NCBI RefSeq assembly: GCF_023716465.1
Contig: NZ_CP092415.1
Coordinates: 647,001 to 711,000 of the forward strand
DNA from: Flagellimonas marinaquae
GTDB taxonomy: Bacteria > Bacteroidota > Bacteroidia > Flavobacteriales > Flavobacteriaceae
Direction: 5' to 3'
DNA length: 64,000 nucleotides
Part shown: piece by piece, positions 15,746 to 60,395 of the stretch
How positions within the stretch are numbered: position 1 is the stretch's first letter
Layout of the letters: each line of letters starts with the position of its first letter
Notes under the pieces: generated by a model
Told to the model about the DNA's origin: nothing
Database searches by the model: none
What the model saw: only the letters and a program-made list of their open reading frames with translations
Translations under genes and position numbers: made by a program

Positions 15746-16175
15746 GACCCTTATTAGAAAACTGGTTGTTGCAAAGGCAACGTTTTGTCCGTTTTTATGA
15801 TTATACAAATAAGTTAGAAACCATTTGACGTGAAACTGAACATTCAAAAATTGGCACATGAAAAGGATAATTGTCATCTTCATAGCATTTGGAATGCCTT
15901 CAAACACCTAGAATTTAGTCTTTTATTATTCAGTGACTTTGATGCCATACGTACTTAAGCTGTTTAATATGAAACCCTAAAATTCCATAGACCATGTTAC
16001 AATCCATTGTTTACAATGTTACAGTTTACCAGGTTTTACCAAAGGCTTAAACTAATAGCTTAATTTTAAAGTTACGACTATGTATCAAAAATCAGTGCAT
16101 CCCCTCTATGTGACCTATACAAGTTGAACTGTGGGGCTTGTACAAAAATTATTCATCATCATCAAAAAACGAAGT
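15746..16175. other. Intergenic region containing an activator-type promoter module
   Basis: 430 nt between DUF885 and M61. A weak hairpin (GTTGC-AAAG-GCAAC, then GTTTT) near 15770 could end DUF885 transcription. The 74-nt repeated promoter module lies at 15995-16068. Nothing else was seen. Confidence 0.5.
15995..16068 (+). promoter_or_regulatory. Repeated 74-nt promoter module, copy A (M61 gene)
   Basis: TGTTAC at 15995-16000 and again at 16017-16022 (22 nt start to start), TTACCAAA at 16036-16043, and a -7-like TAATTTTA at 16061-16068. Copies at 20566-20639 and 31929-32002 keep every spacing exactly. The module points toward the M61 gene at 16176. The TTACCAAA box sits where the Bacteroidetes -33 TTTG would be, so the two upstream repeats look like an activator site over a weak promoter. 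Confidence 0.7.
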
Positions 16176-17678
16176 ATGTTATTCAATTTATTAAAAAAGC
16201 CAAGCCTATGGCTAATCCCTGTGGCCTTTTCCAGTATCAGTTCGAATGCAAATGAGCTGGATAAAAATCAAAAACAAATCTCTTACAAGGTCACCATCAA
16301 AGAGAACGAACCCGACGTGGCACAGATCACCATGAAATTCATACCACAAGATAGTATTCTATATATGGATGGCAGTGCCCGTGCCTTTGAAAACAGTTGG
16401 GGTCATTTTTTACATGATATAAGTGCATATGACCACCATAAGAATAAAGTAAACATTGTACAATTACAAGGTCCAAAGTGGAAACTTGAAGGAGATGATA
16501 CCTCACCAATAACGGTTACCTACAATGTTCATCTTACCCATCCAGATTACACATGGAGTGGAGGTATTGATGGTGCCGCATATCCAACGGAACATGGCGT
16601 CTTTTATACAGGCCGGTCGTTATTCATGCTCAATGGGACCCAACGGAACGATATCTCGGTAAAATTTGATTTGCCCAAACACTGGAAAGCAACAACTCCA
16701 TGGGAAGTCGATGGCAAAGAATCGAATAGGTATGCAATGAAAGGCATAGACGATCTTTTACAATCCGTGATGTTCTTGGGCACACACAAGGAAATCAAAA
16801 TCAAAAGAAAGGACTTTGAATTGATCTTTGCGTTGGGCACCAAAGAAACCATGGAGCAAGAGGAAGAATATAAGGAAATTGCCAACGGAGTTTTAAATTA
16901 CTACGTCAATCTTATGGGCGGCAACCCAAACCCTCCCAACTTAAAAGGAACATTACGATCTGTGGTAGTTGTCAATGCCTGGGATGCCACTGATGGGGAG
17001 GCATTGGGAAACAACATCAGTGTCTTGGTGGAGAAAGATGGGGATGAATTTTCAAAATTGATTTCCAGATTCATTTTTGCACACGAATTCTTCCATCTTT
17101 GGAATGGCAAGTCTTTCTCTCCAAACTCAGATAATTTGGAATGGTTCAAAGAGGGGGTTACAAATTATTACACGGTGAAGTCCTTATATCATATTGGTAT
17201 TTTAAATGATGAAAGTTATCTGAACGTGCTCTCGGATTTCTTTTACAAGCGATATATTGATGATGATGGGGTTGGCACATTGGCGATGTCGGACGGTGAG
17301 GCCAAACACGATCATTGGGGCTTGGTATATGGAGGTGGAATGTTTGTAGGGATGGCACAAGACATCCTTATTCGGAATGCAACGAACAATACCAAAAGTT
17401 TGGATATGTTGATGAGGGCATTTTACCAAAAATATGGGGGTTCAGAAGAACAATATGATATTGATGAAGTGTGTCAACTATTGTCAGATCTGAGTGGGGA
17501 AGATCAATCTTCCTTTTTTGATACATATATCCATGGAACTGCAAAGTTCCCCATAGAAACCTATTTGTATCCAGCTGGTCTAGACGCTTCTGTGAACGAC
17601 GGAAAACTTCTCATTAAAAAGAAGAACCACTTAAAAACATTGGAACAGGATATTTTCTATGGATTTCTAGGAAAGTAA
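16176..17678 (+). CDS. M61 glycyl aminopeptidase-like metalloprotease
   Basis: 500 residues from ATG 16176, chosen because it starts a signal peptide (MLFNLLKKPSLWLIPVAFSS); 16131 is an in-frame alternative. The N-terminal beta domain (about 35-200) is typical of M61. The zinc motif HEFFH begins at residue 303 within FAHEFFHLWNGKSF, and the third ligand glutamate is in LEWFKEGVTNYYT. M61 proteins cleave N-terminal residues and usually end with a PDZ domain. Here the protein stops soon after the catalytic domain, with no PDZ visible. It is preceded by promoter module copy A. Confidence 0.88.
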   Translation: MLFNLLKKPSLWLIPVAFSSISSNANELDKNQKQISYKVTIKENEPDVAQITMKFIPQDSILYMDGSARAFENSWGHFLHDISAYDHHKNKVNIVQLQGPKWKLEGDDTSPITVTYNVHLTHPDYTWSGGIDGAAYPTEHGVFYTGRSLFMLNGTQRNDISVKFDLPKHWKATTPWEVDGKESNRYAMKGIDDLLQSVMFLGTHKEIKIKRKDFELIFALGTKETMEQEEEYKEIANGVLNYYVNLMGGNPNPPNLKGTLRSVVVVNAWDATDGEALGNNISVLVEKDGDEFSKLISRFIFAHEFFHLWNGKSFSPNSDNLEWFKEGVTNYYTVKSLYHIGILNDESYLNVLSDFFYKRYIDDDGVGTLAMSDGEAKHDHWGLVYGGGMFVGMAQDILIRNATNNTKSLDMLMRAFYQKYGGSEEQYDIDEVCQLLSDLSGEDQSSFFDTYIHGTAKFPIETYLYPAGLDASVNDGKLLIKKKNHLKTLEQDIFYGFLGK

Positions 17679-17904
17679 TTTGCGTTACAATTTTCCTGCT
17701 CGATAACTCTGTGAGGATGGTTGAAGACTACAAATAAAACCTATTTGTTTTTCACTAAAGCCATCCTCTGATTTATCGATTCCCATTGAATGTATCATCC
17801 GTTTAAAACAGATTTTCACTTCAATGGACTAGGGCTTCTAAGTACTCAACATGGTTGGAAAACCTCCAATCTCCCCAAGAGCATCAAAATACACTATTCA
17901 AAAA

Positions 17905-19602
17905 ATGAAAAGTTATCACAATTGGATCAAAGTTATGATCATAATGGTATGGTCAAGTGTTGACCTCAACGCCCAATCACCTGATACCATATCCCACGCA
18001 AATTATTTTTTTCATGACCATAAATGGGAAAAGGCCTTTGATCTTTATACCAAGATCACCAGTGAAAATCCTTATAATGGCATCTATTGGTATAGATTGG
18101 GCTTAATTGAAAAGCATCGGGATAATTACAAGGAATCAATTGAATCCTTGAAGAGGGCCATTGAGTGTGGTAGCGATCTAGCAGAATCCAATTACACTAT
18201 TGGAGTAAATTATGCTTTCCTAGGAGACATGGACAAGGCACTCATCCATTTAAAATTAGCGATTGGCCATGGATTGAACAATAGAGAGAATCGACTGTTA
18301 TTGGATAAGGAGTTAGACCCACTGCGGAGTTTGGCATCCTTTAAGAAACTCGTCATACCTGACACCACGGGTACCATTGCAAGATTGGACCAATGGAATG
18401 AAGACATACAATTCTTAAAAAGTCAAGTTGAGCTGACCCACTATAGGTTGTATGATTATTATCCAGAATCAAAATGGGATACCGATTTTGAAACATTGAT
18501 CGATCGAGTAGCGCAATTGAAGGATTATGAGGTCATTGTAAGGTTAATGAAGATGATGAACGAAATTGGCATTGGCCATTCGTATATTATGCCTCCATTT
18601 TCTGGTAAAAATCAATTTCATCAAATACCAATTGAACTTTATGAGTTCAGTGATGGAATCTTTATCAAACAGACATTACCTTCATATAAGAGTTTACTCG
18701 GTAAGAAAATTACATCCATTAATGGCATTCCCATTGAAAAAATACTGGAAATGGCATCCACTGTGGCCATAGCGGAGAATAAAATAATGAAAAGAAGGTC
18801 CAGTTTATTTTATGCCACATTGCCTGAAATTTTGATGGCATTTGGATTGGCTACCGATCATAACAAATCCGTTATCGGTTACCTTGATCAATACGGCAAT
18901 GAAACCAGGATGTCGGTTGTACATCAAGCTTTTTCACCAGATAGTTTCTTGACCAGAAAAACAAATGAGGGATGGGTATCCATGGATGAGTCCATCAATC
19001 CACCCTTGTTTTTATCCAGGCTTGATAACAAATATTGGTTCACATATTTATCCGATTCACAAATCGTGTATTGCCAAATAAATGAAATTGGTAACGAAAA
19101 AGAAAAGTCATTCCACGAATTTGGAGAAGATCTGTTAAGATTTATCGACTATAATGGGGTCAAAGCCCTTGTTCTGGATTTAAGGTTCAATCTGGGAGGA
19201 AGCGGAAAATTGAACAAAGATTTTTTGAGAAGTATCATAAAATCAGATAAGATCAATGAACCCGGTAAATTATTTACCATAATTGGCAATATGACCTTTT
19301 CTGCGGCAATGTTATTGTCAACCCAACTGGACCAATATACGGAGACCACCTTTATTGGAGAACCTAGCGGAGGTAAACCAAGCCATGTTGGTGATGACAA
19401 TGAAATTAGTTTACCGCATTCAGGATTGAAAGCGTATGCCTCGAAATCATTTTGGCAAAGCCCGGTTCCCTACGATGAACGTAATTGGATTGCACCTGAA
19501 ATTTATATACAACCCAGTTCAAAGGAATGGAAGCAAGGTTTTGACCCCTGCCTCGAGTACGTCGTTAAAATCATCACTAGGGGCAATTCGTTTAGACATT
19601 AA
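17905..19602 (+). CDS. TPR plus S41-family serine peptidase, secreted
   Basis: 565 residues from ATG 17905, which starts a signal peptide (MKSYHNWIKVMIIMVWSSVD, ending NAQ). Residues about 25-120 contain TPR-like helices ('YWYRLGLIEKHRDNYKESIESLKRAIE'). The S41 core follows: a 'LGKKITSINGIPIEKIL' PDZ-like strand, then 'KALVLDLRFNLGGSGKLN', then the nucleophile block NMTFSAAMLLS with Ser at residue 466, then FIGEPSGGKPSHVGD. All expected core motifs are present, unlike the second S41-fold protein at 33643. Confidence 0.85.
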   Translation: MKSYHNWIKVMIIMVWSSVDLNAQSPDTISHANYFFHDHKWEKAFDLYTKITSENPYNGIYWYRLGLIEKHRDNYKESIESLKRAIECGSDLAESNYTIGVNYAFLGDMDKALIHLKLAIGHGLNNRENRLLLDKELDPLRSLASFKKLVIPDTTGTIARLDQWNEDIQFLKSQVELTHYRLYDYYPESKWDTDFETLIDRVAQLKDYEVIVRLMKMMNEIGIGHSYIMPPFSGKNQFHQIPIELYEFSDGIFIKQTLPSYKSLLGKKITSINGIPIEKILEMASTVAIAENKIMKRRSSLFYATLPEILMAFGLATDHNKSVIGYLDQYGNETRMSVVHQAFSPDSFLTRKTNEGWVSMDESINPPLFLSRLDNKYWFTYLSDSQIVYCQINEIGNEKEKSFHEFGEDLLRFIDYNGVKALVLDLRFNLGGSGKLNKDFLRSIIKSDKINEPGKLFTIIGNMTFSAAMLLSTQLDQYTETTFIGEPSGGKPSHVGDDNEISLPHSGLKAYASKSFWQSPVPYDERNWIAPEIYIQPSSKEWKQGFDPCLEYVVKIITRGNSFRH

Positions 19603-19825
19603 TCCTTTAACCGCGGTTGAAGTCCAACATTTGTTACATGAAAAGTAAAGGGTAAATGACTTCAGTAAGCCTAGTTTATAATAACAAATAGGACTTTGAA
19701 ACAATTACAATATTGATAGCAAGGTTCAATTATCATTGAAATCCAAGAATATGGAAGAAAATCCGTATTAGGTTATACGCTAATGGTGCCTTGTTATTTT
19801 GCCGAAAAACGATATTAATCAATCC

Positions 19826-20312
19826 TCATAAGCTTTTCAAGGTGATTTTAAAAGTGTCGGTCCCGTTACGGGCTTTGAGCTTTAATTCAAGGGTATCCGA
19901 ACGTTCCCTATCCTTTTTACTGGCAAGAAATCCACATAACCCCACAGGTATTCCATTTACTTCCAAGATTTCATCACCATGATGGATTTTATCTTTCAGT
20001 GACTCGTCCGAAACAAATCGGATGACTGCTTTTTCACCCTCGACCGTAGCGGTAAAACCAAATTCGGAATTGGAAGTATCCTTTATATGGGAATCCCTCT
20101 GAAAATAAAATCTTTCCTTTCTGTAATCCAGTGTCATTATACCATAAGAAAGTAATTCCGCACATATTTTAGAATTGGTATCATTGGAGGTAATGGTGAT
20201 TAAATCGGTTAATATTCAGTCTAACCTTTACCCAATTCAAGCTTACAACCTGTGCCATTGCACCTACGGTGTTGAGCAACAGAAATAATAGTAAAACAAT
20301 AGCTCTTTCCAT
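19826..20312 (-). pseudogene. Broken secreted PDZ/aspartyl-protease-like gene
   Basis: On the minus strand an ATG at 20312 begins the signal peptide MERAIVLLLFLLLNTVGAMA and runs 43 codons to a TGA ending at 20181. A +1 frame reads SNDTNSKICAELLSYGIMTL and continues open to 19826 as DYRKERFYFQRD, then a PDZ domain ('KIHHGDEILEVNGIPVGLCGF'). 'LDYRKERF..' followed by PDZ is the usual C-terminal end of Bacteroidetes retropepsin-like proteases, so the catalytic domain has been deleted and the frame shifted. Promoter module copy C lies about 250 nt upstream. A 103-residue PDZ fragment could still be made from 20137. Confidence 0.6.
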
Positions 20313-20999
20313 ACGCTGGTCTCAATGCCAAAAATAGCTTCAAGTAAATCCATTTTGGAACGCAACACAATGTATATGGCCTCATCTCTGCAAATGACAA
20401 TTTTGGGCCATATAATATGAGGTCAATAAAAAGGGTGGGCTAGAGCGTACCATCCAAGGGCTAATTCAAAAAATCAATCAATGAGAACAAAATTAATGGA
20501 TAAAATAAATGTCTCTTAATGAAAGAGGATGTAAATCTCTGCCCATCCCTTAACAATATCTTGTACAAAAGAAGCACATTCTTCCACCGCTTTGGTAAAC
20601 AATTATAATACGTAACATCCTATTTTATTGTTTGTAACATTACTCCAAGAAAACATGGATCAATTCCATTTCCCATAGTCTACAAATTCCATAATTATAG
20701 GTACAAAAGATATCAATCAATGCGAGACGAAAACGGGATAACAAACCCATTAGGGGGATCAAACTCCTATTGTAATAAACGGTTCCCCCCTTGAAAAAAG
20801 GCTACAATACCCATGATTACAACACAGGATAGGTAGAGTGCATAGTATAAACACACTAAAAAATCTGTGGGTCCTTGGTCAAAATCTTCTATTTTCGAAA
20901 AGATCCTTATCAGCCAGGAAAAGTATCCCCGTCCAAGTCACATGGTTCTAATTGTTTTCTTTTGGGGCAACCATAAGCCCAAACGGTTAAATGTACCAT
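20313..20999. other. Intergenic region with promoter module copy C
   Basis: About 690 nt between the broken PDZ protease gene and the 3' end of the beta-lactamase-like gene. It holds the repeated promoter module at 20566-20639, read on the minus strand. No other gene or structure was recognised. Confidence 0.5.
20566..20639 (-). promoter_or_regulatory. Repeated 74-nt promoter module, copy C (broken PDZ protease)
   Basis: Minus strand, 5' to 3': TGTTAC at 20639-20634, TGTTAC at 20617-20612 (22 nt apart), TTACCAAA at 20598-20591, and TTCTTTTG (-7-like) at 20573-20566. Spacings are identical to copies A and B. It is directed at the decayed PDZ protease gene starting at 20312. Confidence 0.65.
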
Positions 21000-22085
21000 C
21001 TAAAAAAATCCCTTTGATCGAAGTACTTCTTCAATGGCAACCGTGATTTCCATAGTAGGATAGGGTCTTATGTTCCCCAAAACAACAATCAAGACCTCGT
21101 CATTCAAATACCGATGGATGTTACAGATATATCCGTACATGGAACCTCCATGCCGGACAAGTTTACCTGGGCCATCCCTGCCTTCATTTCGATCATATGA
21201 CTTTACCTTAAAACCATAGCCATAGCCACCAAAGGTGCCGGGAGTACCATCAAACAGTTGTTGTTTACTGTTTGCGTCCACCAAGACAGTAGCATATAGG
21301 GCTCTATCCCATTTGAATATATCACTGACATTGGAATACATATCACCTCCCCCTTTGGCATAGGCCATATAATTTTCATCGGCCCTGATAAACTTTCCTG
21401 ATACCAAATCGTGACCCAACGCCTTGTCCGTTGATTTTGAATGGGTTCGCTCAACTCCCGTATGTTTCATTTTTAGAGGTTTGAAAATATGATTTTCCAA
21501 ATAGTCCTTATAGGGAGTTTGGGTAACCCGCTCCAAGACCAAGGCCGCCAATTGATAATTGAGGTTGGAGTATTCGTATCGTGTTCCAGGAACAAAGGAA
21601 AGCGGAACGGAATTGTACAACGAAATAAGTTCTTGGCTTGAAATATCCCGATGTTCCAGCTCCGTGATCCGATTGAGGTGAACAGGCAATCCCGAAGAGT
21701 TTTTCATTAAAAAATGTAACGTCAATAGTCCAAGCTCCTGGTTCAGTTCAGGAATGTAAGTAGAGAGCGGCTCATGCACTTCCAACAATCCATCCTCGCT
21801 GGCCTGCATTATGGCAATGGCCGTGAATGACTTTGTTGCTGATCCAATTAAAAACTTGGTATCTACTTTATTCGACACCTGGTTTTCCCAGTCAGCCATT
21901 CCGAAAGCATTCTCATACAATACCGTTCCTTTCTTCGCCACCAATACAGCTCCACTAAACTGGCTCTTCGCACTATATCCTTCCAATATATCATCCAGTT
22001 GCCTTTTAAGGGTATCCTGTCCCATGACCGGATTATAGATTAAGAGAACAACGGTCCATACAAAAAATCCTTGCACTTTCTTCAT
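21000..22085 (-). CDS. Class-C beta-lactamase-like serine hydrolase, secreted
   Basis: 361 residues with a signal peptide (ends MGQ, about residue 23). The penicillin-binding/AmpC fold is shown by the S82-A-T-K85 motif, Y172-S-N174, and a late HGG (LVRHGGSMYGY). Such proteins in the envelope are usually esterases, DD-peptidases or D-aminopeptidases rather than true beta-lactamases. It starts 4 nt after the stop of the YD-like gene (22090-23343), so the two are one operon. It shares the region with other secreted hydrolases. Confidence 0.88.
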   Translation of the reverse strand: MKKVQGFFVWTVVLLIYNPVMGQDTLKRQLDDILEGYSAKSQFSGAVLVAKKGTVLYENAFGMADWENQVSNKVDTKFLIGSATKSFTAIAIMQASEDGLLEVHEPLSTYIPELNQELGLLTLHFLMKNSSGLPVHLNRITELEHRDISSQELISLYNSVPLSFVPGTRYEYSNLNYQLAALVLERVTQTPYKDYLENHIFKPLKMKHTGVERTHSKSTDKALGHDLVSGKFIRADENYMAYAKGGGDMYSNVSDIFKWDRALYATVLVDANSKQQLFDGTPGTFGGYGYGFKVKSYDRNEGRDGPGKLVRHGGSMYGYICNIHRYLNDEVLIVVLGNIRPYPTMEITVAIEEVLRSKGFF

Positions 22086-22089
22086 CTTA

Positions 22090-23343
22090 CTAGCGAATTA
22101 CATTCCCATCCACATCATAAAAAGCAACTCCTGACCGCTGCCCCTTTGCATCGTACGCATATTTGATATAGGCAGCACCATTGTCCTTTCTATTGACCAG
22201 ATGCCCATTTCTGTCCAGATAACTGATCTGCTCAAGAAAATCATCCCCATTATAGCTATACCTTACTTTATGATAACCCCGTGTCCGGTGTTCGATTGGA
22301 GTACCATCCATATCATAATAGGATAAGGAATCCCTTTGATTGCCCGAAGTATCCCATTGGATCTTCAACATATGGTAACCAGCCTTGGTATGTCGGGAAG
22401 GGTTGTTTTCCTCGTCATAAAATCTTCTTTCGATGATGTTCCCAAATCGGTCAAAACTCGTTTTACTTTTACAGATTCCATAGTTGTTATAAATGAGTTT
22501 GTTATGCTCATCCCGAAGTTCCAAGGCGACTTCATAACCATATTCATTAAACTCTTGGATACCAATGGCCACATCAGGTCCGTTCCCCTTTTCCAAGGCA
22601 GAGTCGTTATCCAACACCTCCCATTTTACAAAATTCCCATCCGCATTGGTCGTAATCCGGTCTTGGGATGCTCCTGAACTGTTTTCTACAAGATTCCCAT
22701 CGCTATCAATATTTTGCATCAGAGCTATATGACCTAAAGGATTGAAGTACAGCCTTAACCTGTAAAATTCAAAGCCCGGCCGAATTGCAACCGACTCCCC
22801 TTTCCTATTGAAACGGTTTTCGATGACACTTCCATCCGCCAAATAGTTCCACTCATACCTAACAATCCCCCAATCGTTTTCAACTTGTTGGCCAGCTCCA
22901 TCTATGAATATCAAGGATTTCCTATACCCCTTATCATCCAAGGAATAGACAAATTCCCTACAGTCGCCCAACACATTGATTTGTTCCCCATTGGTACCGT
23001 AAAAGGTTATTTTCTCTTCGTCCGGCTCATAGGTGAATTCCATACGGTGTGCCAAGGTAAAAAGATTGGCCGTATGATTTGGGCTTCTTGGGTTTTGGCC
23101 ATTATAAAAAGCTACCGAAACCAATCGGTGCAATGCATCGTACGAAAAGCGATAATGATTGCGTTGGAGTGCCTCTTCTTCCGTCAATGGAATGCTCCCG
23201 TTTAGATAGTTCAAAGGAGTTTCTACAAATGCAACCGTAGAATAATAATAAACGGTCGGTACAAACACAGCCTCTTTTGTCATTCCCTTAGCAGTAGAAA
23301 ACAATAGGAGACCCATTATGGTTGTTAAAAAAAATCTTTTCAT
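22090..23343 (-). CDS. Secreted protein with YD/RHS-like repeats
   Basis: 417 residues with a signal peptide of about 20 residues. The mature part has repeated 'Y.yd..G....v.f.d.dG..' units, such as HYRFSYDALHRLVSVAFYNG, SFDRFGNIIERRFYDEENN, VRYSYNGDDFLEQISYLDRN and YIKYAYDAKGQRSGVAFYD, which are spaced roughly 45-60 residues apart like YD repeats. It is far shorter than Rhs proteins and has no toxin tip; the C-terminus ends at the last repeat. It is likely a repeat shell or ligand-binding protein. Its 4-nt distance from the serine hydrolase gene suggests joint function. Confidence 0.65.
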   Translation of the reverse strand: MKRFFLTTIMGLLLFSTAKGMTKEAVFVPTVYYYSTVAFVETPLNYLNGSIPLTEEEALQRNHYRFSYDALHRLVSVAFYNGQNPRSPNHTANLFTLAHRMEFTYEPDEEKITFYGTNGEQINVLGDCREFVYSLDDKGYRKSLIFIDGAGQQVENDWGIVRYEWNYLADGSVIENRFNRKGESVAIRPGFEFYRLRLYFNPLGHIALMQNIDSDGNLVENSSGASQDRITTNADGNFVKWEVLDNDSALEKGNGPDVAIGIQEFNEYGYEVALELRDEHNKLIYNNYGICKSKTSFDRFGNIIERRFYDEENNPSRHTKAGYHMLKIQWDTSGNQRDSLSYYDMDGTPIEHRTRGYHKVRYSYNGDDFLEQISYLDRNGHLVNRKDNGAAYIKYAYDAKGQRSGVAFYDVDGNVIR

Positions 23344-23428
23344 GTAACTTCAATTTTATAGTTGAGTACACGAAATTCGGAACAAAACAACAGCTATTTT
23401 ACTTTAAGCCCCCCTATCAAGACCCAAT

Positions 23429-24559
23429 TCAAGAATTGATACCAGTTCTTGAGGTCAAAAATTGGTTCGGGGTCATCCCGGTCGCCTTTTTAAAAGCTCT
23501 AAAAAAACCGGATTTGGATGTGAAGCCTGCCAAGCTACCAATAGCTTCCAGGGTAAATGATCTGTTGGCCGGATTTAACATCAATCGCTTTGCCTCCTCC
23601 ACCCTGTAGCCATTTACAAAATCCACAAAATTACAATCGAGTTTGGCATTTATGGACTGCGAAAGGTATTTTGGATTGGTACCGATCAATGCGGAAAGTT
23701 CGGATAAGCTGAGACTTTCCTTTTTATATAATAAATCATCCTCAATTATCCGTTTAGCCTTATCGACAATTACCCTATAGGAAGCGCTTGACAATGAGCT
23801 TCGGGAATATTTGGCCGTTGGAAACAATACACTTCCCGTATTGACCATAAGGGCCAAAATGGAGAAAAGCAGTATCAAGAAAGATAAAAAGCCAATATCG
23901 ACCGGCCATTCGACCATGGAATAACCCGATACGTCATGAACCATCCTATAGATGGGGTTGGAAAACTGATTGAACAGGAAATAGACGATAATAATTAGGG
24001 ACAAAAGGTTTAACAAGCGTACGGATGGCCTATCCGAAGTGCCTTTACGGAACCTATAAAATTGAATCCCTATAACACTCAAAAAGGCCAAAGGAATCAA
24101 AGTGGATTTGAGTAAACTTATGGGGTTTCTCCAATAATTATACGGTCCTGGCCTTTTATCCTGATAGAACAACTGAAGCATTTCCATTTTACTTTGGGAT
24201 GGAATGGTCAAGACATGAAGGAATACATAAAGGGCATACAAACCAAACCCATATAAAACAAATCGATACCAACGCCTGAAACGTGGATTGAGATTCGTAA
24301 TAGAACTAAAGAACAGCAATAACAAGGGGTACACCAATAGGTTGTGGAGGCGCCCAGGAATATATACCCAAGGTATATCAAATATGGCTCTACTTAGAAT
24401 CAACACTTTGTACAACAATTCAAGCCCCAAAACGATAAGGCATCCATATAAATATAAATAACCATCATTTTGGAACTTCTTTTGAAAAAGGAAGAACAGG
24501 GCCAAAAAAATGGCCACCAACCCAAAACCAGAACCAACGATTGTAATTAAATCCATCAT
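23429..24559 (-). CDS. Membrane-tethered AraC-family transcriptional regulator
   Basis: 376 residues. Residues 1-235 contain about six or seven hydrophobic helices, and residues about 260-370 contain the AraC double HTH ('LSLSELSALIGTNPKYLSQSI', then LAGFTSKSGFFRAFKKATGM). It lies immediately upstream, on the same strand, of the YD-like/beta-lactamase-like pair (85 nt gap), which are plausible targets. It is one of four such regulators in the window. Confidence 0.85.
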   Translation of the reverse strand: MMDLITIVGSGFGLVAIFLALFFLFQKKFQNDGYLYLYGCLIVLGLELLYKVLILSRAIFDIPWVYIPGRLHNLLVYPLLLLFFSSITNLNPRFRRWYRFVLYGFGLYALYVFLHVLTIPSQSKMEMLQLFYQDKRPGPYNYWRNPISLLKSTLIPLAFLSVIGIQFYRFRKGTSDRPSVRLLNLLSLIIIVYFLFNQFSNPIYRMVHDVSGYSMVEWPVDIGFLSFLILLFSILALMVNTGSVLFPTAKYSRSSLSSASYRVIVDKAKRIIEDDLLYKKESLSLSELSALIGTNPKYLSQSINAKLDCNFVDFVNGYRVEEAKRLMLNPANRSFTLEAIGSLAGFTSKSGFFRAFKKATGMTPNQFLTSRTGINS

Positions 24560-24564
24560 AAGTA

Positions 24565-25069
24565 CTATTGATAGCGTCTCAGCTCAATGGAATAGAAGCC
24601 CTGATCATACATACACTGCAAATTCTATAAGGAACCTTCCATCCCGGGTCATGGACGGACTGCCGTCAAAACCTTCCGCTTTCATTTCCCGTCCCGTCCA
24701 GATAGGCTGGGACCAAGTATCATCTTCCATTTTAAGACTAATATACAAATCAGATTTACCTAAATATTCTCTCCTGTCGAAACTAGCGAAAATTATATAG
24801 GTTTCATCCAGCGCTACATGGACACCCCCTTCATTGGCCTCTGAATTTATGGATGACCTCATTGGTTTTGGTGCAGTATATGCTCCATTTACCAATCTGG
24901 AAACATAAACATCCCCATTCTCTGAACCATGTGGCGTCATGGTAAAGTATAAATTACCTTGACCCGTCATATTAGGGTAAAATTCATTCTCCGGCATAGG
25001 TTGAGAAAAATAAAGTGCTGATTTTTTTCCAATTCCCATGACTTCTTTTTGGATTTCCCTATGTTCCAA
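24565..25069 (-). pseudogene. Truncated PD40 propeller protein
   Basis: The open frame at 24605-25069 (154 codons) aligns with the second half of the PD40 lipoprotein encoded at 4123: 'ENEFYPNMTGQGNLYFTMTP', 'GDVYVSRLVNGAY', 'DETYIIFASFDR', 'GKSDLYISLKMEDDTWSQP', 'DGSPSMTRDGRFLI'. The N-terminal signal and first blades are missing. Near the end the frame shifts; another frame continues as MYDQGFYSIELRRYQ to TAG at 24565. It is probably a decayed paralogue rather than a functional protein. Confidence 0.65.
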
Positions 25070-25097
25070 TCCCCCATCGTGTCATTTTCATTTTAAT

Positions 25098-25739
25098 TCA
25101 AATGCCATGAATTGTTCTTTTTCTGGCCATCGAATGAATCATATACCATGCAAACAAAAGATTGGGTACCCAACACAACCAAGCAACTATCCGATAAGCG
25201 ACCATAAAGTCATCCATGAACACCAATAATATGGGCAACCATACGCGCAAAGTAACCGCTGCAAAGCAAGCTGCATAACTGTAGAACATGAAGGTCTGGT
25301 GCTTTATCACAGCACCCTTCTTGATGTATCGATAAGCAACAATAGTTGTCGCGAACCAAATAATCCCCAGTGAGATGAATCCCATTTGTGCTACACCCCC
25401 GCCGGTAGCCGAAAAGGCAATACCAATACCACACAACGCACTGATCACGGATGAAACACTATACACCTTTCCCAATATTCTGTGGAGCTTGATTCTTTTT
25501 GTCCGAAACCGTTTGCTAAACTGTGCCCATCCCACAAGTAATGCGATTCCACCAAAAACGATATGGCCATAAAATCCAGTGTTCCAAAGGCTGTCCAACA
25601 ACAATTCCGGCGATTTCGTCGCCAGCAAACCAACATTTTTGGCCCCAATGAAATACTTGATCGGATATAAGCTCACCCCGATACATAAAAATGCAAAAAT
25701 GCCCCATAATCCCTTTATTATTATAGTCTTAAGATTCAT
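25098..25739 (-). CDS. DUF2306 family membrane protein
   Basis: 213 residues from ATG 25739 (MNLKTIIIKGLWG); an earlier in-frame ATG at 25808 adds a non-membrane leader. About seven hydrophobic helices are predicted, with the family's conserved 'HIVFGGIALLVGWAQFSKRFR....LHRILGKVY' segment and 'KHQTFMFYSYAACFAAVTLRVWLP'. The paired His residues in these helices resemble heme-binding membrane proteins, but the function is unknown. It sits between the truncated PD40 gene and the trypsin-like gene. Confidence 0.8.
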   Translation of the reverse strand: MNLKTIIIKGLWGIFAFLCIGVSLYPIKYFIGAKNVGLLATKSPELLLDSLWNTGFYGHIVFGGIALLVGWAQFSKRFRTKRIKLHRILGKVYSVSSVISALCGIGIAFSATGGGVAQMGFISLGIIWFATTIVAYRYIKKGAVIKHQTFMFYSYAACFAAVTLRVWLPILLVFMDDFMVAYRIVAWLCWVPNLLFAWYMIHSMARKRTIHGI

Positions 25740-25889
25740 TTTTAATCTCTTTATCGTTTTGATTAAAACACTTCCTTCCTGACATACTGCCGTCCTCGCC
25801 ATACCCAAATTTCATTTGGGCGAACCTGGCATGGGGATGAATTGTAAGATTACCCTCCGTATCATAAAATCGTAACCAAGAGTTTCGTC

Positions 25890-26582
25890 TTACATCCGGA
25901 CTATACTCTTGAAGTAATCTGTGGATGCAGGCTCAAACACCATGGCATTAGTTTCTTGGTCTACATATCCCATGGAGACCAACCCAACCAGTAGCCCATG
26001 CTGATCAAAAACAGGACCTCCACTGCAGCCACCATAGGTACCTGTCGGTACATCCAGACTTAAATTTCCTGTTTGCGTATACCCTTGGAATCTTCCCTCC
26101 ACTTTTATTGGGGACTTGCTTCCATACGGATAGCCCATAAAGTAAAGACGCTCCCCAATTTCCAATGTATCAGCTCTCACATCAAAAAGATGGATACCTC
26201 GCGGGATTTCAGCATTGGTCGCAAAGACCAACCAATCTCCTTTGGGCGGCATGACCAAAAGCTCCGTCTTATCCTCATTGATTAATTCCCCTGCAGAGAC
26301 CTTCACATTAGGATTCTTCTTTGACACAAAGGACCATGACACCAAATCATCTCCAAGGCTTATGGTTTTCATGAGATCGGTTTTTGCGAAAAACAGCACA
26401 TGTTTTGCAGTACAGACAAACACCTTGTTATGGTATTTTACCAAAAATCCACTTCCAGCATGGCCATTGTCATACTTTAACGTTTTAAATTTCACATCAC
26501 ATACCAGTACGGAATCCCTTTGGGCCGCAGACCACTCGAACACCAGTAGGAACAGTAAAAGCAATACGATGGTTCTCTTCAT
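25890..26582 (-). CDS. Secreted trypsin-like serine protease (S1 fold)
   Basis: 230 residues with a signal peptide (MKRTIVLLLLFLLVFEWSAA). The S1/DegP-like fold is shown by 'GSGFLVKYHNKVFVCTAKHV', where the His of TAKH is the catalytic His, and TYGGCSGGPVFDQHGLLVGL, where GCSGGP carries the nucleophile Ser. The catalytic Asp is not obvious: the usual D-x-A-x-L site reads KTELLVMPP. It is therefore either a variant or an inactive member. Confidence 0.75.
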   Translation of the reverse strand: MKRTIVLLLLFLLVFEWSAAQRDSVLVCDVKFKTLKYDNGHAGSGFLVKYHNKVFVCTAKHVLFFAKTDLMKTISLGDDLVSWSFVSKKNPNVKVSAGELINEDKTELLVMPPKGDWLVFATNAEIPRGIHLFDVRADTLEIGERLYFMGYPYGSKSPIKVEGRFQGYTQTGNLSLDVPTGTYGGCSGGPVFDQHGLLVGLVSMGYVDQETNAMVFEPASTDYFKSIVRM

Positions 26583-26945
26583 ATAAATTGGGATTTGTCA
26601 GACCACGAAACGGTAGGTCAATTTTAGAATGAACGACCAATTTGTTAGGAGGAAACTGTTGACCTCATTGTTTTGAACAAACCTATTATGAAATCCGCAC
26701 GGAATCGACCTGATTTCTGCAATTACCGAAATCCGGACCTAGTTTAATGTTATTTAACAAGCTGCCCGCCAAGAAAAGACAATTCATGAGAGCTGATGTC
26801 TTGTTAAACCGAATGCCTGCAAAGTGTAGCAACCAATAAAAAAACCCTCCATACAGGGATGGAGGGTTCGCTAACAAACTAAACACTTGAATTAGTTTCT
26901 TCCAACACTAATGTAGAAACCAATAGGGTATAAAATGAATTGTTA
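26583..26945. other. Intergenic region between protease gene and SusD
   Basis: About 360 nt. It contains the rho-independent terminator of the susCD operon at 26838-26868. Short reading frames on the minus strand are not convincing. Confidence 0.6.
26838..26868 (-). terminator. Rho-independent terminator of susCD
   Basis: Inverted repeat AACCCTCCAT (26843-26852) and ATGGAGGGTT (26859-26868) with a 6-nt loop, followed on the minus strand by a run of seven T's (A's at 26838-26844 on the plus strand). It sits 78 nt past the SusD stop, in the right orientation to end the susCD transcript. Confidence 0.85.
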
Positions 26946-28613
26946 TCAATTTTGATCGGACGGCGACAAATTCGGATTGGCATCCAACTCCGCCTGTGGA
27001 ATTTTGAATATCCAATCGTCGTTCACCGATGGACGTTCCACTTGGTACGCCTCTTGATAGAGCACGGGAGAGGCCCCTGAACCACCATTGGCAGCATGGT
27101 CGATGCCCTCATCCCATCTGATGTGGTCGGTGTAACCAAAACCTTCGCCCCAAAGTTCCAATCTTCTCTGGAACTTGATGTGCTCCATCATGGACTCTTG
27201 GGTGTTGTAGATGGTTACGTCGTAAGCACTGTCACGTTCTTCGCCCAGTGGTCTTAAAGCTTCCTGTGCACCAGGGATGTCGTTCATCATCACCTTGGCC
27301 TCTGCCTCGATCAAGTACATCTCGGAAGCACGCATGTAGATTATATCATCAGGATCGGTCGAACCGGGATTGGCATTTTTCAACTTAAAGTGCATATACG
27401 GATGCTGGTTAAAGGCATTATTGATACCGTAAGTTGCATTGATCTCAGCTCTTTTTGCAAAATAGCCCTCTAGGTCATTCGCATAATTGGGGTCCCTTGG
27501 CAGACCGGTATTGGGATCAAGCCCTCCTTGGTTGTTAGCTGCGGAACTATTGGTGTTCGGCGCATCTGAAAGGAATACATCCTTTCTGTAATCCGTTTCA
27601 GGGATGGCATCCACCAATCTTCTATCGGCAATCTTTGGGTTGTTCCTGATCTGGCTACCGTTGAAGGTATTTGTGGTCAAGTAAAAATATGATCTAAAAT
27701 AAGTGGTCTCCGCTGTAATCACATTGCTACCCCAGATGACCTCGGAAAGATTATTGGAGTTGAAACCTGACTTCCAATCGTCCTCGCCCATCAATGGATA
27801 GTTCTGGCGGGCCATAACGGCGGCGTCGGCAGCTGTTTGCCAGTCACCTTTTGAAAGTGCCGTACGTGCCAATAGACCGTAGGCCACATCGATGTTCAAC
27901 TGGGACTTGGTTTCAGGTCCACCGCTTGGTCTTCCCGAACCTTCTTCAAAGCGCTCTATGGCAGTAGCTAGATCTGCCTCGATCTGGTCGTAGATTTCCT
28001 GAACGGTAGATCTTGGCTGACTGGTAAAGGGAGACTCCGAAGAGAACAACAATGGCACACCTGGATCGCTAGCCGGATTTCCGATCAAGTACCCCTTGGC
28101 ATAATGTTGCACCAAAGAAAGATAGGCATAAGCCCTATAGGTGTAGGCCTGTCCCAAAATCTCGTTCAACTGTGGAGATTCCACTAAAGTACCGTCGGTT
28201 CCCCTGTTGATGAGGAGGTTGGCCCCCAAGATGATGTTGTACCTGTGGTACCACAACAACTCGCAGGTCAATGACGTTTGATCGGTATGGGAGTTCCACT
28301 GCATCTCCGTTCTCCACCCCAGATTATTGGCATTGGCAGAATGTATCAACCCACCTGTAAGATTATCACCCAGTGGCACCCAATAGTGATTGTTCGCCCT
28401 TGAATCATCACCCCCAGGGAATATGGCCTGTGATTGTGAGAACAGTCCACGGTGCAGCCCGTTCAATATCAGCTGCATGTTGTCTTCATTGGCTAACGCA
28501 TCGGAGGCAGAAATGGCATCCGTTGGCGTTGTTTCCAAAAAGTCGTCGTCGCATGAAGTTATGGCGATCCCTAGGAAGGCCAGTAACAGTATATTAATTT
28601 TTCTTAACATCAT
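26946..28613 (-). CDS. SusD/RagB family outer-membrane lipoprotein
   Basis: 555 residues. The leader MMLRKINILLLAFLGIAITS is followed by the lipidated Cys and three Asp residues, a surface-export-like signature. SusD features are the N-terminal TPR-like helices ('EILGQAYTYRAYAYLSLVQHYAKGYL'), the segment 'VPLLFSSE', and a C-terminal 'RASEMYLIEAEAKVMMNDI' and 'QRRLELWGEGFGYTDHIRW'. It binds nutrient ligands on the surface and closes over the paired SusC barrel. Here it follows SusC by 9 nt. The ligand is unknown, as no glycoside hydrolase accompanies the pair. Confidence 0.95.
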   Translation of the reverse strand: MMLRKINILLLAFLGIAITSCDDDFLETTPTDAISASDALANEDNMQLILNGLHRGLFSQSQAIFPGGDDSRANNHYWVPLGDNLTGGLIHSANANNLGWRTEMQWNSHTDQTSLTCELLWYHRYNIILGANLLINRGTDGTLVESPQLNEILGQAYTYRAYAYLSLVQHYAKGYLIGNPASDPGVPLLFSSESPFTSQPRSTVQEIYDQIEADLATAIERFEEGSGRPSGGPETKSQLNIDVAYGLLARTALSKGDWQTAADAAVMARQNYPLMGEDDWKSGFNSNNLSEVIWGSNVITAETTYFRSYFYLTTNTFNGSQIRNNPKIADRRLVDAIPETDYRKDVFLSDAPNTNSSAANNQGGLDPNTGLPRDPNYANDLEGYFAKRAEINATYGINNAFNQHPYMHFKLKNANPGSTDPDDIIYMRASEMYLIEAEAKVMMNDIPGAQEALRPLGEERDSAYDVTIYNTQESMMEHIKFQRRLELWGEGFGYTDHIRWDEGIDHAANGGSGASPVLYQEAYQVERPSVNDDWIFKIPQAELDANPNLSPSDQN

Positions 28614-28622
28614 TTGATTTTT

Positions 28623-31600
28623 TTAAAAAGTTACGTTCAATCCCAATGAAATAATTCTTGCAGGATTAAAATCATTCCCTTCCCCTGTACCTGCTAGGTT
28701 GAACTGTGGGTTGAGTCCTTTTCGCTCGCTCTGGGTGTATAGGTTTTCACCGGTAAGGGAAATCCTTAACTGGTCAAGGCCAAGTTGGTTGGCGATCTTG
28801 CTGTCAAAGGTGTAGCCGAAGTTCACATTGCGCAGTGCCCAGAATGAGGCATCCGTCAGGAAACGTTCGGATTGTCTTCTCACCAAGTTAGGGTTACCGT
28901 TTTCCATTCTTGGAACATCGGTGATGTCACCAGGTTGTCTCCATGCCCTCAAAATGTCAGGGTGCAAGGAGCTACCATAATTACCGCTGTGCATCATGGC
29001 AGCGTATCCATTGTCCAACACGCTACCGCCGATACCGTAGTTTATCAAGAAATCAAATGAGAATCCTTTGTAGCTGATGCTGTTGGCAATAGATCCCAAT
29101 AGGTCAGGGATGGAGCTCTCACCTGTATAGGCACGCTCGGTATCCTGCCAGTCGCTGGTCGTGGCGATGTCACCATTGGCATCCAACACGGGAACACTGT
29201 TTCCGTTGTCGTCCAATTCATACTGAAGGAACAATTGGTCCCCGGTTTCTGGATCAACACCCGCGGTTCGCAATAAGTAGAAATCAAACCTTGAACGTCC
29301 CACATCCCATCGTTGTTCGTCTTCCACAAATGGAGAAGGCAAGCTGGTGATTTCGTTCTTGAAGGTCGAGGCCTGCAAGGTTACGTTCCATCGAAAATCA
29401 GACTTGTCGAACAAGTTGGCCGTCAATGCCATCTCCCAACCGGAGTTGAACATATCCCCAACGTTCACGGGAACCTCGTTCAGACCATTACTTGGTGCTA
29501 TGGGCAGATTGTACAATAGATCGGAGGAATTTCTCTTATAGTATTCCACGGAACCGTCCAAGAAGTTGTTGAACAAGGTGAACTCTAAGGCAACATCAAA
29601 GTTCTCGATGGTCTCCCACTGTAGATTGGGGTTACCTATGTCCGTGTATATGATGGCAGGGTCACCTGCGTTGGAGGTGAGGGAAAATCTGGCCTGTGAC
29701 AAAAAGAAGTCCAAAAGATCATCGTTGCCTACTTCACCGTAAGAAGCCCTTAATTTCAATTGGTTGATCACACTGGAATCCTGCAAGAAACTTTCTTGAT
29801 CAATTCTCCAAGAACCACCAACGGAATAGAAGGTACCCCAACGGGTATCGGCATCGAATACCGAGGAACCATCACGTCGAACGGATCCACTGATATAGTA
29901 CTTGTTCTTATAGTTATAGTTGACCCTAGAGAAATAGCCTTCAATACTTTTACGCGTGGTGGACCCTCCAAGTGCTACAATACTGGAAAAATTATCGAAT
30001 TCATAGATGCCACTGGCTGCCTGTAAAATAGACATGCCGTTGTTTGAAGAGAAGGTCCTGTCAAAGCTTTCGTGACCTGCTGTTATGTCGAGGTTGTGAT
30101 CTCCAAAGCTCTTGTTATAGGTAAGGATTTGGTTGAAGTTCTCCACCTGTCTCCTACTTCGTACTTCCCTATATCGACCATCAGGTTGGGCATCCCCTAT
30201 CAATGCATTTTCGTACTGCTTTGTCAGGCCCTCATTGATATCTCTACCGTAGTTCAATCGAAGGCTTAAGCCATCGATAATCTCTTGTTCGGCAAAGAAT
30301 CGAAAACCATAGGTGTTGTCTCTATTTCGCATATCGTTCAGTAATAGTTCCTGAAGCGCATGACGTCCCTGACTGATGGGTCTGGAACCGATATTATACT
30401 CTGGGAAGCCCTCACCACTGTCAAATACACGATTCCCATTGGCGTCCCGTACAATATTCCCTTGTAAGTCGTTCACATAAACGGGATATATGGAACCGAT
30501 ATTCTTGGCAAAACCAAATGGGTTGGCAATACTATTTGCTCCTGCAGATCGTGGTGCCACAGCTTCGGTGATTGCTAAATTGGCGCTACCTCCAATGGTC
30601 AATTTATCGTTTACGTCGAACTCTGCGTTCAAACGTGTGGTCAAACGGTCAAAACCTGAAGTCACTACATAACTTTCCTCATCCAGATAAGAAGCGGAGA
30701 AGAACACTTTGTGGTCGTCCCCACCACCTGAAACGTTCACGTTGTAATTTTGACGTACGCCTGTCCTCGACAATACATCGTACCAATCAAGGCTGTTGTA
30801 AATCACATTGGCATTGGGATTCAATTGACCATCCGTACCGACAATTTGATCATTGGGTACATTGAACGGATTATATCCCAAGGCATTGTAAATGTTCGCC
30901 GAGGCAAAAGCAGGATCACCACCACCGGCACTTGAATTTTTCAAGGCTTCCCACATGGTCTCGTAATAACCTCCAGGGGAAAGTTCAGGGTAGAACGGAA
31001 CGGAAGTATCCACCAACCCATATTGCATGGAGGCATTAACTTGAATACCCCCTCTTCTACCACTCTTTGTGGTAATGATTACAACCCCATTGGCAGCCCT
31101 TGAACCGTATAGGGACGTTGAAGCTGCATCCTTGAGAATGGTAAAGGATTCAATATCTTCTTGATTGATCGTATTAAGTTCCCCTTCGTACTGTACCCCG
31201 TCCACGATGTATAAGGGATCGGTGTCTCCGTTCAGGGTCCCTACACCACGGATAACAATGCCAGGGGAAGTCCCTGGACCTTGTGCCGAAGTGAACTGTA
31301 CCCCTGTCGCACGACCTTCGATGGCCGCTACCGGGGAAGTCACGTTCCTAATGGACAGTTCCTCGGCCCCAACAACACTGGCGGAACCCGTAAAGGCTTC
31401 CTTGGTACTGGTGCCATAGGCCGTTACGATTACCTCTTCTAGGGCCTGGGCATCCTCTTCCATTTGTACATTAATTGTGATGGAAGCCCCTACCGTTCTT
31501 TCGACGGTCCGCTGCCCTAGATAACTAAAGCGCAGTACATCACCCGTACTTACCGCAATGGAATAGTTACCGTCAAAATCGGTCTGTGTACCCGTGGTGG

Positions 31601-31745
31601 TCCCTACAACGACCACGGAAACCCCTGGCAGGGGCTGATTTGAGGTATCGGTCACTAGACCTGACACCGTTTTTTCCTGTGCTTGCAGCCCTAGACATAA
31701 GAAGAATGCTGCGATGGCCACATAGCATCGAATTCTAAATTTCAT
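28623..31745 (-). CDS. SusC/RagA family TonB-dependent receptor
   Basis: 1040 residues from ATG 31745 (MKFRIRCYVAIAAFFLCLGL, signal peptide ending AQ); 31766 is an in-frame alternative seven codons upstream. It has the CarboxypepD-like N-terminal domain ('GLVTDTSNQPLPGVSVVVVG'), the TonB box region ('EVIVTAYGTSTKEA'), a plug with 'LYIVDGVQYEGELNTINQED' and 'TSLYGSRAANGVVIITTKSG', and a long C-terminal barrel ending 'LGLNVTF'. It works with SusD (9 nt downstream) to import oligomers or peptides. It is preceded by promoter module copy B. Confidence 0.95.
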   Translation of the reverse strand: MKFRIRCYVAIAAFFLCLGLQAQEKTVSGLVTDTSNQPLPGVSVVVVGTTTGTQTDFDGNYSIAVSTGDVLRFSYLGQRTVERTVGASITINVQMEEDAQALEEVIVTAYGTSTKEAFTGSASVVGAEELSIRNVTSPVAAIEGRATGVQFTSAQGPGTSPGIVIRGVGTLNGDTDPLYIVDGVQYEGELNTINQEDIESFTILKDAASTSLYGSRAANGVVIITTKSGRRGGIQVNASMQYGLVDTSVPFYPELSPGGYYETMWEALKNSSAGGGDPAFASANIYNALGYNPFNVPNDQIVGTDGQLNPNANVIYNSLDWYDVLSRTGVRQNYNVNVSGGGDDHKVFFSASYLDEESYVVTSGFDRLTTRLNAEFDVNDKLTIGGSANLAITEAVAPRSAGANSIANPFGFAKNIGSIYPVYVNDLQGNIVRDANGNRVFDSGEGFPEYNIGSRPISQGRHALQELLLNDMRNRDNTYGFRFFAEQEIIDGLSLRLNYGRDINEGLTKQYENALIGDAQPDGRYREVRSRRQVENFNQILTYNKSFGDHNLDITAGHESFDRTFSSNNGMSILQAASGIYEFDNFSSIVALGGSTTRKSIEGYFSRVNYNYKNKYYISGSVRRDGSSVFDADTRWGTFYSVGGSWRIDQESFLQDSSVINQLKLRASYGEVGNDDLLDFFLSQARFSLTSNAGDPAIIYTDIGNPNLQWETIENFDVALEFTLFNNFLDGSVEYYKRNSSDLLYNLPIAPSNGLNEVPVNVGDMFNSGWEMALTANLFDKSDFRWNVTLQASTFKNEITSLPSPFVEDEQRWDVGRSRFDFYLLRTAGVDPETGDQLFLQYELDDNGNSVPVLDANGDIATTSDWQDTERAYTGESSIPDLLGSIANSISYKGFSFDFLINYGIGGSVLDNGYAAMMHSGNYGSSLHPDILRAWRQPGDITDVPRMENGNPNLVRRQSERFLTDASFWALRNVNFGYTFDSKIANQLGLDQLRISLTGENLYTQSERKGLNPQFNLAGTGEGNDFNPARIISLGLNVTF

Positions 31746-31766
31746 AAATCTCGTTTTTGTTAACAT

Positions 31767-32248
31767 TAATTTTGAATTAGTTTAATTGAGAAGGGAGGAC
31801 CAGGGAAATCATCTATGGTGACTAATCAAAAAATCATTCAATAAATGAGAACAGTGCTTTATGGATGTAATTTGTTCCTTTATAAAATGTGATGTATTCC
31901 CAGTCCAGCCCTTTTGCAATTGTGGAATCAAAAAAAAGGGATTGGGAAGGGATTTTGGTAAATCCTTATAAACTGTAACACAACATTTTACACATTGTAA
32001 CATGGATGAAAAAACCCAAGCATTTAAGGAAACAGCAGGATAATTAGCAGTAAAAATAACGCCTATAAGCCCTACACAAAACAACTATTGGGAAAGCGGA
32101 TCTTGCTGGCTATAATTCAATAAAAGGAAGGTAAAACCATGGTATGTGGAAATTAAAATTTCACAAACTGTGAACGACTTATTGCATTTGAATTCCATAC
32201 AGGGACAAAAAATCGGGACGGGATAATATCCATTCTGGGCATTCCGGG
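31767..32248. other. Upstream region of susC
   Basis: About 480 nt between the AraC stop (32249) and susC. It carries promoter module copy B (31929-32002, minus strand). No gene is seen. Confidence 0.6.
31929..32002 (-). promoter_or_regulatory. Repeated 74-nt promoter module, copy B (susC)
   Basis: Minus strand, 5' to 3': TGTTAC at 32002-31997, TGTTAC at 31980-31975 (22 nt apart), TTACCAAA at 31961-31954, and a T-rich -7-like box ending in TTTG at 31936-31929. It is directed at susC, about 165-185 nt upstream of the start codon. It shares CCATGTTACAAT and TGTTACAGTTTA with copy A at the same spacing. Confidence 0.7.
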
Positions 32249-60155: not shown

Positions 60156-60297
60156 ATGAACATAACCCCCATCTTTTCTATGAAGTAATTGAATAAGAAA
60201 TTTCAGAACCAACAGTGATAATTTTTATGTTACCAATAAAAAATTGACAAACCGCATTAGTATAAAGATAAATATATGTTTGTGAATGTCAGGATTT

Positions 60298-60315
60298 TCA
60301 ATGCAAAGGTTTGCA
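60298..60315. promoter_or_regulatory. Conserved near-palindromic site in the FG-GAP / PIG-L divergent promoter
   Basis: TCAATGCAAAGGTTTGCA, identical to the site upstream of iolJ. It lies 142 nt before the FG-GAP start (minus) and 80 nt before the PIG-L start (plus). A -7-like TATCTTGA follows at 32 nt on the plus strand and TATCTTTA at 31 nt on the minus strand. Confidence 0.6.
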
Positions 60316-60395
60316 CTATCATTTTAAGTTTAAACATGCACTTTTAGTATCTTGAATGAGTGTACAAATACTTAATTTCACAAAAGGAATCCATT

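Follow-up and report, generated by a model that had tools for sequence, protein, structure and literature searches.

Class II activation by AraC at the arabinose promoter uses the I1-I2 operator. Uptake loci of Bacteroides reportedly carry cis-encoded antisense RNAs, described by Cao et al. in 2016. In Bacteroides thetaiotaomicron, FopS small RNAs act as repressors at the start regions of SusC mRNAs, and RbpB counteracts them (PMC11697453). Here we describe, from computation, a promoter module and a predicted leader RNA family from a 64,000-nucleotide stretch of the Flagellimonas marinaquae genome (contig NZ_CP092415.1, positions 647,001 to 711,000), the whole of which we call the window. The module lies upstream of a SusC-type transporter gene (susC), an M61 peptidase gene and the remnant of a PDZ protease gene (pdz). 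We think it likely that the locus is controlled in two layers, a local regulon with an AraC-type operator and promoter and leader RNAs that would act as antisense RNAs in trans.

A promoter module confined to one gene block

The three modules in the window are real, exact and far beyond chance. Each has the layout TGTTAC, 16 nt, TGTTAC, 13 nt, TTACCAAA, 17 nt and an octamer, 74 nt in all, with identical spacing in the three copies. All three are within 16 kb and each is oriented toward a gene, and all are kept in two other genomes of the genus, G408 and G499:

15995..16068, plus strand: module copy 1, 5' of the M61 peptidase gene; exact match, kept 5' of M61 in G408 and G499
20566..20639, minus strand: module copy 2, the pdz promoter; exact match, kept in G408 and G499
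31929..32002, minus strand: module copy 3, the susC promoter; exact match, kept in G408 and G499

The three-box pattern, with up to three mismatches allowed, matched the window three times, each time with no mismatch, against a mean of 0.03 and a maximum of 1 in 100 dinucleotide shuffles. The two-box part alone, with up to two mismatches, gave eight matches against 5.15 expected, and 14 of 100 shuffles reached eight, which is not significant; the signal is therefore in the three boxes jointly. The initial annotation had given these places, strands and spacings, with each copy pointing at its gene, and was right in all of them. Its AraC-type reading also holds up, as direct repeats set 22 nt apart beside a poor -33 element, in every case ahead of a gene, are what an AraC-type activator would need.

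The regulon is closed and locus-specific, not genome-wide. With up to three mismatches, the window's own genome (G000, 3.78 Mb) contained only these three sites, and a reversed control pattern had four matches. Among 397 family genomes searched with up to one mismatch, a sample that did not include G408 and G499, only G000 had a match. The 71 genomes of the genus (the Muricauda clade) gave nine matches in four genomes with up to two mismatches, and the reversed control gave single matches in eight genomes. The G408 pdz and G499 M61 sites have more than two mismatches; they were found by synteny and were included among the nine sites from which we built a sequence-only model of the module (R1). 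Run on the 71 genomes, R1 scored the nine sites at 51.9-71.9 bits and the next match at 22.1 bits; the scores of the nine are built in because these sites are the training set, but the gap below them is not. Pattern matches in G408:C60 and G419:C17 (two mismatches each, neither recovered by R1) were set aside as noise. The nine clear sites belong to three species, the window's species, G408 and G499, each of which contributes its susC, M61 and pdz promoters. A wide regulon with many further matches had been predicted for the module, and this prediction fails, with three sites in the own genome and nine in the genus, all at three orthologous promoters. We also looked for matches at random or coding positions, which would have spoken against a promoter element, and found all nine sites between genes.

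The modules are conserved beyond their surroundings. G408 and G499 share the same gene block, and in both of them the aligned upstream regions show a module ahead of all three genes, susC, M61 and pdz. The nine sites align without gaps and the 17-nt step to the -7-like box is preserved; at the M61 site of G499 the upstream box is gone. Identity is 59-86% among orthologous modules (vs 30-63% for the 60 nt upstream) and 56-71% among the three modules inside one genome (vs 23-34% for the upstream 60 nt). The M61 region shares nothing but the boxes with the other modules. The conserved columns over the nine sites, aTGTTACAa....T.aAaT....tGTTACat.TTATAA...TTTACCaAa, extend beyond the boxes first recognized. 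Each half of the site consists of TGTTACA followed by T.T.AA, which would fit a monomer with two contact blocks. The second box of the susC and M61 modules reads TGTTACAGTTTA at both places in the window and GTTACATCTTATAA at both in G408, and the sites within a genome may be drifting together with their regulator.

A predicted leader RNA family complementary to a distant SusC start

In all three genomes the predicted susC and pdz transcripts have about 130 related nucleotides after the module, with 76% mean column identity. In the window these leaders are:

31791..31924, minus strand: susC leader RNA; match to the leader model R2, with closing helix and antisense arms; the weakest pairing of the set
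20430..20561, minus strand: pdz leader RNA; match to R2; strongly complementary, in antisense, to the start of a second SusC gene (SusC1, below)

R2, a model of the leader of about 130 nt, matched every one of the 71 genus genomes at E<=0.1, at least 150 matches altogether; leader length is about 115-135 nt. At 19 of 26 places inspected, a SusC gene was downstream on the same strand, and at 12 of the 26 the best upstream match was an AraC-type gene. The other seven were three pdz leaders, a free-standing copy (L071), and L076, L010 and L021, where the flanking DNA had no gene like those of the window. Among 149 family genomes, one per genus, 27 had an R2 match at 1e-3, mostly a short one.

The leaders are closed by a covarying helix. 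We tested 35 leaders, 31 from the genus and four from three other genera, aligned by sequence; visual inspection and folding served to choose the helix. The helix of about 17 bp (CAATTG, AAAGG and GGGCGG with their partners) had 95.2% standard pairs; seven of 17 pairs had changed on both sides, and none of 500 shuffles reached the covariation score. Sliding the helix partner by one to three columns lowered pairing to 45-56%. An earlier fold of six leaders had given two pairs with compensatory change, too thin alone.

The leaders are complementary to the start of SusC1. Short R2 matches near positions 60-112 are the opposite strand of the first codons of SusC1 (G000:C1:804459 onwards). We had considered that the short matches marked one conserved small RNA per genome; this was wrong, as those inspected were mostly the antisense strand of a SusC start. 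SusC1 adjoins rpsL, in divergent orientation, in the own genome. Of eight genomes from other genera, five have the same arrangement and a sixth (G086) shows part of it where a contig ends; rpsL was not seen within 1500 nt of SusC1 in G096 and G012. We compared 35 leaders and two free-standing copies with the SusC1 start region of their own genome, leaving aside the partial matches L010, L023, L027 and L030, as well as L079, whose target region was not in the set, and many further R2 matches. In silico, 37 of 37 RNAs paired with their own SusC1 start better than all 100 shuffles (-32 to -65 kcal/mol). For 20 leaders the mean was -52.8 kcal/mol for SusC1 in contrast to -24.4 for the start of the gene downstream of the leader (mean z -0.4); that is, these leaders do not pair with the start of their own gene. 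In the own genome, SusC1 was the best target of all four RNAs, with -32 to -51 kcal/mol against -17 to -34 for three other SusC starts.

In other genera, changes in the target are accompanied by changes in the leaders. SusC1 begins with ATGAGAACAAAACTTAATGG in most genomes and ATGAGAACAAAGTTTAGTGG in G096 and G077, and in the leaders of these two genomes CCATTAAACTTTG replaces CCATTAAGTTTTG, a two-base compensation that restores both changed pairs; the same leaders also have GATC for GTTC, a mismatch. The first G086 leader matches three target changes of G086. Compared with eleven start regions, the own target was best for G086b, G096 and G077 and second for G086a. The arms are kept in the leaders of many species, whereas the neighboring loop sequence varies.

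Two copies of the core are free-standing, look independent and have intrinsic terminators, L102 in the own genome and L071 in G451. L102 (G000:C1:639296-639353) is 7.6 kb before the window, behind an S41-like gene, and consists of the antisense core followed by the terminator. It is likely a small-RNA gene directed against SusC1.

The pdz promoter and leader are retained in all three genomes although the protein gene is broken in the window and undetected in the G408 locus. In G499 the promoter is followed by a gene of 405 aa with an aspartyl-protease domain. The window has only a fragment with a weak PDZ match:

19826..20137, minus strand: pdz protease remnant, counterpart of residues 277-402 of the 405-aa G499 protein; the aspartyl-protease domain is gone

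In G408, 56 kb of the locus contained no relative of the pdz protein, and no open reading frame longer than 78 aa follows the pdz leader on its strand before a convergent S41 gene 177 nt on. We propose that the pdz unit is mainly a small-RNA gene whose promoter would make little besides the leader. Net of their own fold, binding to SusC1 was -18 kcal/mol for the pdz leader and -34 for the free copy, and in the own genome the effect would come mainly from these two. The initial annotation is supported in part; it missed both the retention of the pdz promoter and the antisense-like leaders of susC and pdz.

A general 22-nt repeat at leader promoters elsewhere is not supported: at 35 other promoters the best scores at lag 22 averaged 6.46 (vs 6.12 for shuffles, standard deviation 0.16), and lag 18 was higher (7.09). 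The L069 promoter of G403, beside an AraC3 homolog (36% identity; AraC3 is described below), has 11 of 12 bases repeated at lag 22. Repeats of nine in ten bases at lags 19-24 were present, at mixed lags, in five of 14 AraC neighborhoods (L006, L007, L012, L014, L015), a scan that is insensitive because it misses true modules. The leader promoters L104, L073, L081, L137, L140, L142, L146 and others have another common element, roughly GTTAAAAA.GTACTTCCCCATGGGC ... GCCGTTTTAAAAGTACC, perhaps the operator of another regulator.

The candidate regulator, the proposed control and its alternatives

The window encodes four AraC-type proteins:

32249..33331, minus strand: AraC3, in which a hydrophobic part, predicted to lie in the membrane, precedes an AraC-type DNA-binding domain; candidate activator
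23429..24559, minus strand: AraC2, rival candidate regulator for the pdz site; orthologs in G499, G408 and G398
7109-8128: AraC1, an AraC-type gene
39710-40795: AraC4, an AraC-type gene

AraC3 has the C-terminal helix-turn-helix of the AraC/XylS domain (PF12833 HTH_18, 9e-20, residues 273-353) and six hydrophobic segments in a simple hydropathy scan; the window and G408 proteins are 79% identical in the DNA-binding part and 51% in the hydrophobic part. Matches to AraC3 at 1e-60 occurred in three of the 71 genus genomes, exactly the three that bear the module, and in all three the gene is directly 5' of the susC module. AraC1 is present in 10 of the 71, with G408 and G499 not among them, AraC2 in seven and AraC4 in nine. 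AraC3 and the module are both missing from G397, although this genome has the leader as well as susC and susD at 90-92%. A membrane-tethered AraC protein had been put forward as regulator before, and the shared species distribution now favors AraC3 among them. We infer that AraC3 is the most likely reader of the module and that it would act as an activator.

Readers other than AraC3, namely AraC2, AraC4 or different proteins at different copies, are unlikely. Orthologs of AraC2 and AraC4 are present in G408 and G499 and are better conserved (78-85%) than AraC3 (55-58%), AraC2 belongs to a gene cluster that adjoins pdz, and the pdz sites form a subgroup of their own. However, both proteins also occur in genomes in which no module was found, with the caveat that G410 is 75% complete and the G398 contig ends early, and AraC3 alone fits the distribution of the module and adjoins the susC site.

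With AraC3 as activator, we picture the following sequence of events. An AraC3 dimer would read the two half-sites 22 nt apart, the downstream one lying against a poor -33 element (TTTACC) with the -7-like box fixed 17 nt after TTACCAAA, and would activate at these weak -33 promoters. The output would be the SusCD pair, the pdz transcript and the M61 peptidase, the last perhaps together with the S41 gene that follows. Transcripts would start shortly before the closing helix, and those of susC and pdz, with the M61 transcript excepted, would begin with the leader. One leader arm would pair with the SusC1 start codon and first codons and one with about -22 to -10, and the leader or a fragment of it would block SusC1 translation in trans. 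Induction of the accessory SusCD would then lower the conserved SusC1, a transporter swap. On balance, we favor the general form of this proposal: in Flavobacteriaceae, leaders of accessory SusC mRNAs would silence the rpsL-linked SusC in trans, and pdz would be an AraC-controlled small RNA that has outlasted the decaying protease gene it once preceded.

It is rather unlikely that only the local AraC regulon works, the likeness of the leaders reflecting a duplicated promoter-leader block and the arms being relics, with no regulatory role, of a SusC start copied long ago in inverted orientation. Such a history would account for susC and pdz leaders that are related along their length and for the weak pairing of the window's susC leader. 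It does not sit well with a closing helix that covaries, arms kept across species beside a loop that varies, compensatory arm changes in other genera, or free-standing cores with terminators. Less likely still is a cis-acting attenuator or riboswitch-like element of the leader's own SusC gene, as might be expected from a structured 5' leader directly before SusC at 19 of the 26 places. The own downstream start is left unpaired in the 20 leaders examined (mean z -0.4), and the free-standing copies have no SusC gene downstream. Furthermore, Rfam 15 gave no family match at gathering score for window positions 15000-33000, and with the cutoff relaxed to E of 5, nine leader loci yielded five weak matches, none convincing and all far under gathering scores. 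That the modules resemble one another by chance or are copies of a mobile repeat, for which one could cite their being only three in the genome, is extremely improbable and already contradicted by the nine orthologous sites, given 0.03 expected in shuffles, modules kept in place in three species while their flanks diverge, and an M61 copy that has only the boxes in common.

Several observations weigh against AraC3 control combined with trans-silencing by leaders. On the regulatory side, the co-distribution of AraC3 and the module comprises only three related species, the pdz sites are a separate subgroup (GTATTATAA) unlike those of susC and M61, the M61 transcript has no leader, and AraC2 is still a candidate for the pdz site because the G398 contig ends after a BlaC-like gene, where the site would be. 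On the RNA side, the window's susC leader pairs at -32.3 kcal/mol, which shrinks to about -2 once its folding is subtracted, and the G499 susC leader is also weak (-36.0). For G120 the own target ranked only fourth of eleven, in G080 the best target was a second SusC (-62.9 kcal/mol) and not the rpsL-adjacent one (-39.7), and several leaders (e.g., L073, L104, L137) mismatch the start codon itself. SusC1 codons 1-18 have 0.03 synonymous differences per pair vs 0.49-0.73 from codon 55 on (six genomes), which is no proof of pairing, because the quiet codons outrun the paired part and the start is alike in genomes that yielded no leader. Finally, R2 was the means of finding both leaders and SusC1 targets, which builds in part of their complementarity; only the location of the target and the changes across genera are independent of it.

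Gene content and comparison with known systems

The genes of the locus, besides those listed above, are:

28623..31766, minus strand: susC, a SusC/RagA-type outer-membrane transporter (TIGR04056, Pfam)
26946..28613, minus strand: susD, SusD_RagB
16131..17678, plus strand: M61 peptidase; listed start GTG, in-frame ATG at 16176 conserved in aligned relatives
17851..19602, plus strand: TPR and S41 peptidase gene, possible M61 operon partner; adjoins M61 in G408 and G499 too

With susC and susD adjacent, this is a SusCD uptake locus. It does not qualify as a polysaccharide utilization locus, since a Pfam scan of 30 window open reading frames found no glycoside hydrolase; it found M61, S41, trypsin-like and S15 peptidases and one CBM9-like domain with DUF5916. 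Most of the nearby hydrolases are peptidases. Peptide uptake is our better guess for the substrate.

Compared with their counterparts in G408 and G499, SusC and SusD are 94-97% identical and the adjacent AraC3 only 53-59%, a strong contrast that may mean that susCD was recently exchanged or that the sensor evolves fast. The genes of the block are reshuffled between species: the DUF5916/CBM9-like gene (8125-10350) is far from susCD in the window, and one 50% identical to it (G408:C113:34417-36582) is directly 3' of susD. At 53476-63964 of the window, three large genes contain numerous related repeats, some about 25-55 nt in length and others longer, and probably encode repeat-rich surface proteins.

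In Flavobacterium johnsoniae, the major SusCDE complex Fjoh_0403-0405 is described as belonging to the two most abundant components of the outer membrane and as having no known function (PMC12611786). Based on gene numbering and the position of rpsL, we guess that SusC1 is its counterpart. The consulted section of an F. psychrophilum transcriptome study lists structured 5' elements before other genes and names none before SusC (PMC9723704). We found nothing closer in the literature searched, which excludes most subscription journals and all preprints. If the proposal is true, the coupling of induction and repression would be a simple exclusion rule built into an mRNA, testable in culturable marine flavobacteria, and one of the many membrane-bound AraC proteins would be tied to a defined three-site regulon.

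The module resembles AraC I1-I2 in having two direct half-sites about two helical turns apart, with the downstream one beside the upstream promoter element. It differs in its spacing (22 rather than 21 nt), its Bacteroidota -33/-7 promoter, its membrane-bound candidate regulator and its sequence, and it is a predicted site. The antisense RNAs of Cao et al. are reported to control SusC-type loci too, but they are encoded opposite their target, whereas the leaders would act on a distant gene.

The likeness to FopS is one of description, not sequence (PMC11697453). Both pair with SusC mRNA starts, would repress uptake systems and occur in many copies per genome, on the leader side in silico. FopS RNAs, however, are stand-alone RNAs of about 65-70 nt with canonical promoters, in contrast to structured leaders of about 130 nt with two arms that are mostly the 5' part of other SusC mRNAs, in another bacterial family. 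The leaders thus share the pairing with SusC starts, in silico, and are not short independent transcripts of 65-70 nt. We therefore describe them as working like FopS and do not file them as FopS members. Both layers have known kin, AraC-type promoters and antisense control of SusC, and the predicted leader RNA is the larger finding.

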